From the NCBI GenBank assembly GCA_027420455.1, contig DAIBJA010000046.1, positions 1-41,891 on the forward strand: a DNA stretch of 41,891 nt, written 5' to 3'. The notes beneath the pieces were generated by a model that made no database searches, was not told the DNA's origin, and saw nothing but the letters and a program-made list of their open reading frames with translations. The stretch is from Clostridia bacterium (GTDB lineage Bacteria > Bacillota > Sulfobacillia > JAJZYS01 > JAJYTV01). A program made the position numbers and the translations under genes. Shown here one piece after another: positions 9,797 to 13,487 of the stretch. Each line of letters begins with the position of its first letter. The stretch's first letter is position 1.

Positions 9797-10099
9797 TCAG
9801 GCCCCTATGGCCTGTTTGATCTCCCTTTGGATGTCCTGCCACGGAATGTCGCCCTCGAAACGCACCTGCCCGTCGAACAGCACGAGCGGGAGTTCGCATT
9901 CGCCCTCCCGCACGCGCCGCGCGAGCTCAGGGTCCTGACCATCCTCCAGGTTGCGGTAGCTGACGGTAGCCTGCCCCGCAAAACGCAGTTTGACAAAGCC
10001 CTGAACCATCTCGGCCTGCTCGAAGAACGTCATGGCACTCGGGCAGGAGCCGTAGGCGAACTCCTCGCCGTTCGTGCCGATGATCGCGACGTCGATCAA
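9797..10099 (-). CDS. Small conserved-looking protein, possibly thioredoxin-fold (YuzD-like)
   Basis: TTG start at 10099 after GGAGGAG RBS; IDVAIIGTNGEEFAYGSCPSAMTFFEQ...ELPLVLFDGQVRFEGDIPWQDIQREIKQAIG. The longer track ORF to 10258 would run into the tmRNA gene. Confidence 0.55.
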   Translation of the reverse strand: MIDVAIIGTNGEEFAYGSCPSAMTFFEQAEMVQGFVKLRFAGQATVSYRNLEDGQDPELARRVREGECELPLVLFDGQVRFEGDIPWQDIQREIKQAIGA

Positions 10100-10128: not shown

Positions 10129-10480
10129 TGGTGGAGGCGCGGGGGAACTGCCCCCCCGGTCCGCCAGGCCTCAAGCCCGGGCATCTACGAGCGTAGCCCT
10201 TGATTTGATCTCGCCTTCGGTGCCTTACAAGGGCGAAGTCACCGTCAGCCAGCTGCAATTGATGTCCGCGCTCCGTCGCCGCGACCGGTGCGCGTAAGTC
10301 CGCGATTTGCGTTCCTGCCGACGTGCGGACTTCGTCAGGCGGAACGGCTCAAGCGCTCTTAGGCTGCGAGAGCGAAGTTTGAGTCGTTGGCAGTTGTGCC
10401 GTTTCCGCTGTTTTGCGAGGCGCGGAACCTCGGCTCGCTTCCCGAACCGGACCACCCGACGTCGATTCTAGTTCGCCCCC
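10129..10480 (-). ncRNA. ssrA: Transfer-messenger RNA (tmRNA); tag (A)ANDSNFALAA
   Basis: 5' GGGGGCG pairs fully with 3' CGCCUCC preceding ACCA (one G-U); tag reading frame GCC AAC GAC TCA AAC TTC GCT CTC GCA GCC TAA (10359..10391); GGCTACGCTCGTAGATGCC segment matches the conserved tmRNA 3' region; 352 nt; adjacent to smpB. Confidence 0.93.
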
Positions 10481-10935
10481 AAACTATGGCGCCGCCCCTT
10501 GAGCGCGCGCTCCATCTCGCGCTTCGCGTCGCGCTCCTTGAGGTCCTCGCGCTTGTCGTAGAGCTTCTTGCCGCGGCAGATGCCCAGTTCCAGCTTGCAA
10601 AGACCGCGCTCGGTGAAATACATGCGGAGCGGCACCACGGTCATGCCACGCTCGCGCATGCGACCGACGATCGCGTCGAGTTCACTGCGATGCAGCAGGA
10701 GCTTGCGACGCCGGTACGGGTCCACGTTCATGCGGTTGCCCTGCTCATAAGGGCTTATGTGCAGATGCTGGACATAGAGCTCGCCTTGCGAAAAGGACGC
10801 GTAGGCGTCCTGCAGGTTCACCCGCCCTAGTCGCGCCGACTTGACTTCCGTGCCCGTCAATGCGATCCCCGCCTCGATCGTCTCGAGGACGAAATAATCG
10901 TGGCGGGCCTTGCGGTTGTCGGCGATGATCTTCAT
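10468..10935 (-). CDS. smpB: SsrA-binding protein SmpB
   Basis: MKIIADNRKARHDYFVLETIEAGIALTGTEVKSARLGRVNLQDAYASF... classic SmpB. Confidence 0.97.
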   Translation of the reverse strand: MKIIADNRKARHDYFVLETIEAGIALTGTEVKSARLGRVNLQDAYASFSQGELYVQHLHISPYEQGNRMNVDPYRRRKLLLHRSELDAIVGRMRERGMTVVPLRMYFTERGLCKLELGICRGKKLYDKREDLKERDAKREMERALKGRRHSLGAN

Positions 10936-13487
10936 GGCGTTTCGCCCGCAGGCTCCCTCGGCGTCTCTTTGTTGCCATTCTTGCCGCCCTTGCCGCGGCG
11001 ACCCGAACGGCGCCTCCGATTGTAGTTGCGGCGCGACTTCCTGTCAACGACAGGGGTGTCCCCTTCGCCGTCCGCAGGCGCCTCGACGGCCCCGGGCGCT
11101 TCGCCTGCCACCGCGGCCGTTCCGCCCACCTCGACTGTGCCGGCCACGGACGGCGCGGCCAGCGAGGAAAGCACCGTCTCGTCAACCTGTGGCTGCGACG
11201 CCTCGGCTGGCTGCGCCTGGCTCTTCCGCCCGCGCCGGGACCTGCTCCGCCCGTTGCGTCCGCTACCGGAACCGTTGGTGCTTCCCGCGCCTGCGGTCTG
11301 CACGCCCTGTGCACCGTTCGGAGCCGGGACGCCCTGTCCGCTACGGGCCGCCTGCGGGACTTCCGCCAGCGAGAGCTCGATTTCGCCATGTTCGACGTCG
11401 ACCCGCTCGACGCGAACGCGCACGCGGTCCGCGAGGCGGAAGACGCGACGTTGGCGCTCGCCCTGGAGCTGGAACTGCTTCTCGTCGTAGTGGTAGTAGT
11501 CATCGGTGAGCGAACTCACCCTCAGGAGTCCCTCCACGCCGAGCGAGACCTCGACGAAGATGCCGAACGGCGTGACCCCAGTGACGATCCCGTCGAACTC
11601 GTCGCCTGTCTTGTCCTGCATGAACTCGACCTTCTTCAGGTCGAGCGACTCGCGTTCCGCCTCGTCCGCCTGGCGCTCGCGCTCGGAGGCGAGACGTGCG
11701 ATCTCGGGCAGGCGCGCCACGAGGTCCTCCCGCCGCTCGTCGCGCATGGGCCGGCGACGAAGGTATTCCTTCAGGATGCGGTGGATGACGAGGTCGGGAT
11801 AGCGCCTGATAGGCGACGTGAAGTGGCTGTAGAGCGGCGTTGAGAGGCCGAAGTGGCCGATTGCCGCGGTATCGTAGCGGGCACGCGCCATCGAGCGCAG
11901 CACGACCGCATTGACAAGGTCCTGTTCAGGCCGACCCTGGACGCGCGCCAGCACATCCTGCAGGGCGCGCGGATGCAGCTTCTTCCCGTTCCCGCCGGCG
12001 ATATGGAAGCCGAAGCGACCGAGCAGCCCCCTGAGGATCTCGAGCTTCTCCGGATCCGGCTCCTCGTGCACGCGATAAAGGAACGGCAGGTTCTGACGCG
12101 CGGCGACCTCCGCCACCGCCTCGTTCGCCTGCAGCATGAACTCCTCGATCAGCTGGTCAGCTTCGGTGCGCTCGCGCCGCTCGATCGCGATCGGCTTGTG
12201 GTCCTCATTGAGCCGCACCTTGAAGTCGCTGACGGTGAGGTCGATCGCGCCCCGCTCGCGGCGGCGCCGCCCGAGGATGTCCTTGAGGCGGGCCATGCCG
12301 AAGAGGATCGGCATGAGCTCCTCATAGGGCTGATCGGGCGGTTGGCCCTCGAGCGTCTGGTTGACGCCGCTATAGGAGAGGCGCGCCCGGCTGCGGATGA
12401 CGCTCTCTTGCATCTGATGGCGCACGCGTCGGCCCGCTGCGTCGAAATCGATGAAGACGCTGAGCGTTAGCCGGTCCTGCTGCGGCAGCAGGCTGCAGAC
12501 GCCGTTCGAGAGGTGCTCGGGCAGCATCGGAATGACGCGGTCAACGAGGTAGACCGACGTGCCGCGACGCAGAGCCTCGCGATCGAGCGCCGTCCCCTCG
12601 TGCACGTACTGGCCGACATCGGCGATGTGCACGCCGAGACGCCAGCCGTCGTCCGTCGGCTGCAGCGAGATCGCGTCGTCGAGGTCCTTCGCGTCGTCGG
12701 AGTCGATCGTGAACGTGACGAGGTCCCTGAGGTCCTGACGCTGACGCAGGTCCTTCTGCGCCATCTCGGCCGGGATCTTGGCCGCCTCCGCCAGAACGTC
12801 GTCGGGAAATGCCTCGGGCAGTCCGAGCTTGCGCACGATCGCAAGCACGTCGACACCCGGACGGTGCATCTCGCCGAGCCTCTCCACCACCTTGCCCACC
12901 GGACCGCGCCTGGCGTCGCCGAACACCTCGACATGACAGACCACGAGTTCCCCGTCCTCGGCGTCCATGCGCTCGCGGTCGGGGATGATGATGTCATAGG
13001 CATCGCGTCCGTCCTGGGGGCGAACAAACCATGCCCCGCCGACCAGCTCGATTCGGCCGACGATCGTGTCGCGCGCCCGCTGTACGATGCGTACGACCTC
13101 GCCGGAGCGGCCCTCCAGCCGGCGCACCAGGACGCGGTCCCCGTGCATGGCGCCCTTGAGGTGTTCGACGGAAACCCTGAGATCCTCACCGTCGCCGTCC
13201 TCGGGGACAAACCAGCTGTCGCCGCGCCTGGTGCCCTGAATGCGTCCAGGCAGGAGGTCGACGCGCCCCGGCACAGCCAGGGACCCGCGTCGCGTCCTGA
13301 CAATCTCACCGCGCGCCACCATCTCTTCGAGCATGCGCGTGAAGGGGGCGCGGCGTTCGGTCTTGATCTGGAACTTTTCCGCGAGCTCCTCCGGAGAGAT
13401 CGGGTGCTGCGCCTCGTCGCGGATGAAGGCGATCAGACTCTGCCGCGCAGGCAGGTCGGAAGGTCGCCGCCGGCGGCTCACAACCAT
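10932..13487 (-). CDS. rnr: Ribonuclease R with a long low-complexity, basic C-terminal extension
   Basis: TIDSDDAKDLDDAISL, HIADVGQYV, VHEEPDPEKLEILRGLLGRFG, S1 domain FDGIVTGVTPFGIFVEVSLGVEGLLRVSSL; then an Ala/Gly/Arg/Lys-rich tail. Confidence 0.95.
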   Translation of the reverse strand: MVVSRRRRPSDLPARQSLIAFIRDEAQHPISPEELAEKFQIKTERRAPFTRMLEEMVARGEIVRTRRGSLAVPGRVDLLPGRIQGTRRGDSWFVPEDGDGEDLRVSVEHLKGAMHGDRVLVRRLEGRSGEVVRIVQRARDTIVGRIELVGGAWFVRPQDGRDAYDIIIPDRERMDAEDGELVVCHVEVFGDARRGPVGKVVERLGEMHRPGVDVLAIVRKLGLPEAFPDDVLAEAAKIPAEMAQKDLRQRQDLRDLVTFTIDSDDAKDLDDAISLQPTDDGWRLGVHIADVGQYVHEGTALDREALRRGTSVYLVDRVIPMLPEHLSNGVCSLLPQQDRLTLSVFIDFDAAGRRVRHQMQESVIRSRARLSYSGVNQTLEGQPPDQPYEELMPILFGMARLKDILGRRRRERGAIDLTVSDFKVRLNEDHKPIAIERRERTEADQLIEEFMLQANEAVAEVAARQNLPFLYRVHEEPDPEKLEILRGLLGRFGFHIAGGNGKKLHPRALQDVLARVQGRPEQDLVNAVVLRSMARARYDTAAIGHFGLSTPLYSHFTSPIRRYPDLVIHRILKEYLRRRPMRDERREDLVARLPEIARLASERERQADEAERESLDLKKVEFMQDKTGDEFDGIVTGVTPFGIFVEVSLGVEGLLRVSSLTDDYYHYDEKQFQLQGERQRRVFRLADRVRVRVERVDVEHGEIELSLAEVPQAARSGQGVPAPNGAQGVQTAGAGSTNGSGSGRNGRSRSRRGRKSQAQPAEASQPQVDETVLSSLAAPSVAGTVEVGGTAAVAGEAPGAVEAPADGEGDTPVVDRKSRRNYNRRRRSGRRGKGGKNGNKETPREPAGETP

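Follow-up and report, generated by a model that had tools for sequence, protein, structure and literature searches.

The genes smpB and ssrA share 13 nucleotides on the minus strand of the window, which is the whole 41,891-nucleotide stretch of DNA analysed here, and this overlap is real. An arrangement previously known as a curiosity of a decaying symbiont is a stable feature of ordinary Bacillota that evolved twice, in one case across an order. We consider it rather probable, judging from sequence, that smpB and ssrA form one unit in which the tmRNA would be cut out of the smpB message, an upstream smpB stop codon having been lost and a TAG within the tmRNA having taken its place. The feedback loop on SmpB that has been proposed for such an arrangement becomes testable by transplanting it into a laboratory host.

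The smpB gene ends inside the tmRNA gene

The ssrA gene was located with the Infernal covariance model RF00023, which matches 10480..10129 on the minus strand over model positions 1-374 with an E-value of 3.8e-53 and no truncation (Table 1). The 5' end is also placed independently of this model by the acceptor stem and the ACCA encoded at the 3' end of the gene. All seven base pairs of the stem (GGGGGCG/CGCCUCC) are formed, the third being a G3.U70 wobble, which is the alanine identity pair. Because the stem is fully paired, contains the G.U pair and is accompanied by the encoded ACCA, base 1 of the tmRNA is assigned to 10480. The gene thus combines a full covariance-model match, an acceptor stem, a G.U pair, a tag reading frame and CCA, as is characteristic of tmRNA. 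ARAGORN called no tmRNA at 10129..10480, a gene with an Infernal score of 135.7 bits, and Infernal was used for tmRNA placement after this miss. Given the miss, automatic annotation may overlook ssrA in the group to which the window belongs.

Table 1. Coordinates of the features discussed in the text.
Feature	Position	Strand	Basis or remark
rnr (RNase R)	10932..13487	minus	RNB, CSD2 and S1 domains
Sigma-A-type promoter-like site, TTGACA-17-TACAAT	11019..11047	minus	11/12 match, inside rnr 3' end
smpB, 155 aa	10468..10935	minus	ORF list; PF01668; start overlaps rnr stop (ATGA)
smpB/ssrA overlap, 13 nt, (TT)G GGG GCG AAC TAG	10468..10480	minus	RF00023 and ORF list; in 6/6 genus members
smpB stop TAG	10468..10470	minus	tmRNA bases 11-13
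ssrA (tmRNA)	10129..10480	minus	RF00023, 135.7 bits, full model; 5' end 10480, 3' end 10129
Tag reading frame, ANDSNFALAA-stop (GCC..UAA)	10359..10391	minus	Sequence and RF00023 alignment
Small gene, DUF1462-like	9797..10099	minus	Kept in family; PF07315 match weak, below cut-off

SmpB has a complete domain (PF01668, E-value 3e-60, residues 4-146, profile positions 1-142 of 143) together with the GKK...DKR tail motifs (...RGKKLYDKRE...). smpB (10935..10468) ends 13 nt into the tmRNA (10480..10129). A previous sequence-only reading of this DNA had put the tmRNA 5' end at 10480 and the smpB stop at 10468..10470, with an smpB 3' end reading ...AGT TTG GGG GCG AAC TAG and the third base of a Leu codon serving as tmRNA base 1, and all of these points were confirmed. 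The Infernal search also puts the tmRNA 5' end at 10480 and not downstream of 10468, and the overlap stands. The same reading was slightly off in placing the smpB stop codon inside the acceptor stem, as the stop occupies bases 11-13 whereas the acceptor strand consists of bases 1-7, which are spanned by the smpB codons for L-G-A.

Distribution and origin of the overlap

RF00023 and PF01668 served to place both genes in 126 class genomes, and the DNA between the two genes was read. The comparison of spacing among relatives that had been suggested earlier gave an exact 13-nt overlap in all six species of the genus examined, and because the same 13 nt recur in every one of them, the overlap is not due to chance or assembly error. 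These six members represent five distinct smpB sequences, the smpB-side DNA of G000 and G003 being identical, and their SmpB proteins end in H/Q-S/T-LGAN. Among 118 class members in which both genes have a position, there is no other overlap. In the sister genus, SmpB ends in ...SRR-TGA at a distance of 6 nt upstream of the tmRNA, with a linker one base longer, and the gaps in order relatives range over 8-27 nt; the overlap in the genus is therefore derived, through an indel that deleted the old smpB stop. Tight spacing is common in the class, with a gap of 0-11 nt in 33 further genomes and a gap of at most 11 nt in 39 of the 126 members.

A sample of the phylum, in which the closest smpB-ssrA pairs were read, yielded one more overlap (G345). 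The order to which this genome belongs has the identical 13-nt overlap in eight of eight species examined, which come from four genera and include one single-contig genome, and since all eight share it, an assembly quirk is excluded. SmpB of this second order ends in L/M/T-GAI, with TAG again at tmRNA bases 11-13. Gaps in the other family of its class measure 19-152 nt, and the overlap is thus a separate derivation; the arrangement is also old, because third-position identity of smpB is only 30-57% for most pairs of species, which is near saturation.

In two other Bacillota families and one class member (L232-L235, L240, L241, L195) the smpB stop directly abuts tmRNA base 1, and at these loci cleavage by RNase P would put the stop codon at the extreme 3' end of the mRNA. 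An Erysipelotrichaceae MAG (L081, 3945..3949) has a gap of 1 nt between the smpB stop and the tmRNA, extending tight spacing beyond the class of the window. With the exception of this MAG, the gaps in named Bacilli, Geobacter and others are at least 74 nt where ARAGORN detected a tmRNA.

Why the overlap measures 13 nt

A reading frame that enters the tmRNA in phase 2 meets a stop at base 13 in 66 of the 126 class genomes, while the median distance to a stop in the other two phases is 68-69 nt; the three distances in the window are 132, 13 and 122. After loss of an upstream stop, a short harmless tail is available only in phase 2 because the other phases run further, and since phase 2 stops at once, convergence on 13 nt is accounted for without selection for the exact length. 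Selection on the residues of the SmpB extension is likewise unsupported, since the final residues vary in the genus (H/Q, S/T).

These observations bear on the view that the overlap is a neutral accident, in which loss of the stop is tolerated because another stop follows within a few codons, cleavage rarely meets a translating ribosome and no regulatory role exists. We give this view a little less than an even chance. It is favoured by the cheapness of the 13-nt outcome, by the variable extension and by the frequency of very short gaps in the class, but it has to explain why the overlap was kept in all eight species of the second order while smpB third positions approached saturation, although single substitutions (e.g., GAA to TAA) would suffice to recreate a stop ahead of ssrA.

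Promoters and transcription

Promoter calls in this study are consensus matches. On the minus strand upstream of smpB there is a single 11/12 site (11047..11019), compared with 0.5 sites in shuffles of the scanned region, and transcription from this site in the rnr tail would be expected to start near 11012. The site lies at the same place in six of six genus members and appears as TTGAAA-17-TATAAT in both members of the sister genus (8/8 in the family), so that the change from TTGACA/TACAAT to TTGAAA/TATAAT between genera retains the 11/12 match. The wobble bases of its hexamers give GTT (21 of 308 Val codons) and AAT (16 of 90 Asn codons), which are uncommon codons in the neighbouring genes. 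Within 120 nt of ssrA, by comparison, the best promoter-like match in the genus reaches only 4-5/12, in agreement with the earlier remark that smpB contains no convincing ssrA promoter. CATAGT (10488-10483) was rejected as an ssrA promoter, being too near 10480 and unconserved (CACAGT, CAGAGT, CACACT).

Throughout the class, a site of at least 9/12 near ssrA occurs in 0 of the 39 genomes with a gap of at most 11 nt versus 24 of the 87 others (p=5e-5; 0.001 by genus and 0.019 by family), a comparison to be read with caution as the near-ssrA regions of short-gap genomes are coding. The result depends on the threshold, and at 10/12 or better the p values become 0.005 for genomes, 0.017 by genus and 0.089 by family. 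This pattern suggests that ssrA in the class either possesses a promoter of its own together with a wide spacer, or is carved from the smpB message. Several short-gap lineages of the class are without a strong site upstream of smpB too, which tells against the preferred reading. All species of the second order (8/8) have a TGnTAnAAT element upstream of smpB, and hairpin-plus-T sequences were read by eye 3' of ssrA in several members.

It is conceivable that ssrA is transcribed from its own promoter inside smpB, the smpB transcript being minor and the overlap rarely of consequence. Some class members with longer gaps do carry near-consensus sites at 40-100 nt before ssrA, which speaks for this, and ssrA could use a non-canonical promoter; yet the weak best match in the genus and the lack of any site of at least 9/12 near ssrA among the short-gap genomes make it quite improbable. 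The sequence-only reading had made its argument conditional on joint transcription, and this condition has gained support from the absent ssrA-adjacent site and the conserved near-consensus site in the rnr tail. Joint transcription, with maturation of the tmRNA removing the smpB stop, is accordingly regarded as likely.

Probable consequences of tmRNA maturation for smpB

Under the preferred reading of one smpB-ssrA unit, rnr, smpB and ssrA would form an operon that has a further promoter within the end of rnr. A small indel would have removed the ancestral smpB stop immediately before ssrA, and the sole early in-frame stop on offer, the TAG lying in the conserved 5' end of the tmRNA, would have taken its place, fixing the overlap at 13 nt. 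Maturation of the tmRNA 5' end by RNase P is established (PMC3985003). Because the stop lies inside the tmRNA, it would be lost at maturation provided that transcription is joint, and a cut at 10480 would leave an smpB mRNA ending in ...AGU UU without a stop. A ribosome arriving after this cleavage would be rescued by tmRNA-SmpB and the SmpB chain tagged with A-ANDSNFALAA, whereas one arriving before the 3' half of the tmRNA has been transcribed could still terminate at the TAG. Pioneer ribosomes may in fact terminate normally, because cleavage needs the tmRNA 3' half, which is made about 350 nt later, and this timing may let most ribosomes complete smpB before RNase P acts and keep the nonstop message rare. 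The truncated SmpB would be without only LGAN, which lies beyond the Pfam domain, and may be active if released untagged. An RqcH-type gene is present in the genus, and RqcH could also handle ribosomes on the nonstop smpB message. ArfB was not seen, the only PF00472 proteins observed being of the RF1/RF2 type, and it was rejected as a backup rescue factor.

The joint transcript, its cleavage, the tagging of SmpB and any net negative feedback on SmpB are inferred from this arrangement, and a regulatory role of the overlap is possible. The stronger claim is that the overlap is a selected control, in which each tmRNA made would cost one smpB stop codon and SmpB output would be tied to tmRNA supply and rescue activity, as a homeostatic circuit with two or more origins and fixation within lineages. 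We regard this as rather unlikely. Equally doubtful is a competition in which a ribosome at the smpB stop covers the 5' strand of the tmRNA, delays tmRNA maturation and so balances the two outputs. The stop lies 11-13 nt into the tmRNA here and 0-11 nt before it in the 33 further class genomes, and such distances fall within the footprint of a ribosome; this competition is nevertheless pure inference, and the order of transcription may separate the two events.

Comparison with known systems

An smpB stop located within the mature tmRNA on the same strand, as in the window, is a defining feature of the kind of overlap described in Carsonella. Hudson, Lau and Williams (2014; PMC4131195, citing Mao et al., 2009) reported that smpB overlaps ssrA in half of the Carsonella strains and, among about 2,000 genomes, "nowhere else". 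They noted that tmRNA maturation would give a nonstop smpB mRNA, calling this an interesting feedback situation, and the feedback idea is therefore not new. Carsonella ruddii resembles the window in that smpB enters ssrA and a nonstop smpB mRNA, a substrate of its own product, is expected. It is, however, a degenerate insect symbiont in which half of the strains show an intrusion of variable extent, the SmpB tail and central loop are lost and ssrA is decaying. Unlike Carsonella, the window encodes the full SmpB domain with its tail motifs and a full-length tmRNA with a normal tag, and the overlap has one fixed 13-nt phase in every examined species of the genus and of a separate order. A literature search, which covered few subscription papers, found no reports of an smpB-ssrA overlap after 2014. 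What is new here is the existence of two lineage-wide, independently derived overlaps in ordinary genomes, along with the promoter anatomy and an explanation of the 13 nt.

Related logic is known from arfA of E. coli and brfA of B. subtilis, rescue factors made from stop-less mRNAs and repressed by trans-translation (PMC8012679). Their messages lose the stop through an RNase III site or a terminator hairpin, whereas that of the window would lose it through RNase P maturation, and the factor concerned would be SmpB itself. In the selB/selC pair of Alphaproteobacteria (PMC8124441), the gene for a tRNA overlaps that for the protein dedicated to it, and processing has been proposed to repress this protein; this is a different gene pair, and the tRNA can lie entirely within the ORF. 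The secG-rnr-smpB operon of S. pneumoniae (PMC3534368) shares with the window an overlap of rnr and smpB, which are co-transcribed there, but does not involve an ssrA-smpB overlap.

Genomic surroundings

The window forms contig 11 of its source genome, which measures 1.98 Mb and is incomplete (77%). The nearest named relatives are Bacillota MAGs, and one of them, DBS2-4.bin93, has an SmpB with 100% identity to SmpB of the window. The minus-strand gene order is enolase, alpha/beta hydrolase, rnr, smpB, ssrA and the DUF1462-like gene. A special RNA structure at the 3' end of smpB was rejected because its final 120 nt showed no better folding than shuffled sequences (z +1.0); a terminator scan found no terminator-like site near the smpB stop. 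The DUF1462-like gene (100 aa) starts about 30 nt past the tmRNA 3' end and is conserved across the family of the window. The same scan predicted no terminator between ssrA and this gene, which leaves the tmRNA flanked by coding genes on either side. The window and G003 (L077/L041) are essentially identical over 4 kb or more upstream and on through smpB, and from within ssrA onward their identity falls to 75-92%. The breakpoint lies inside the tmRNA gene and represents either recombination or island exchange, or a MAG chimera.
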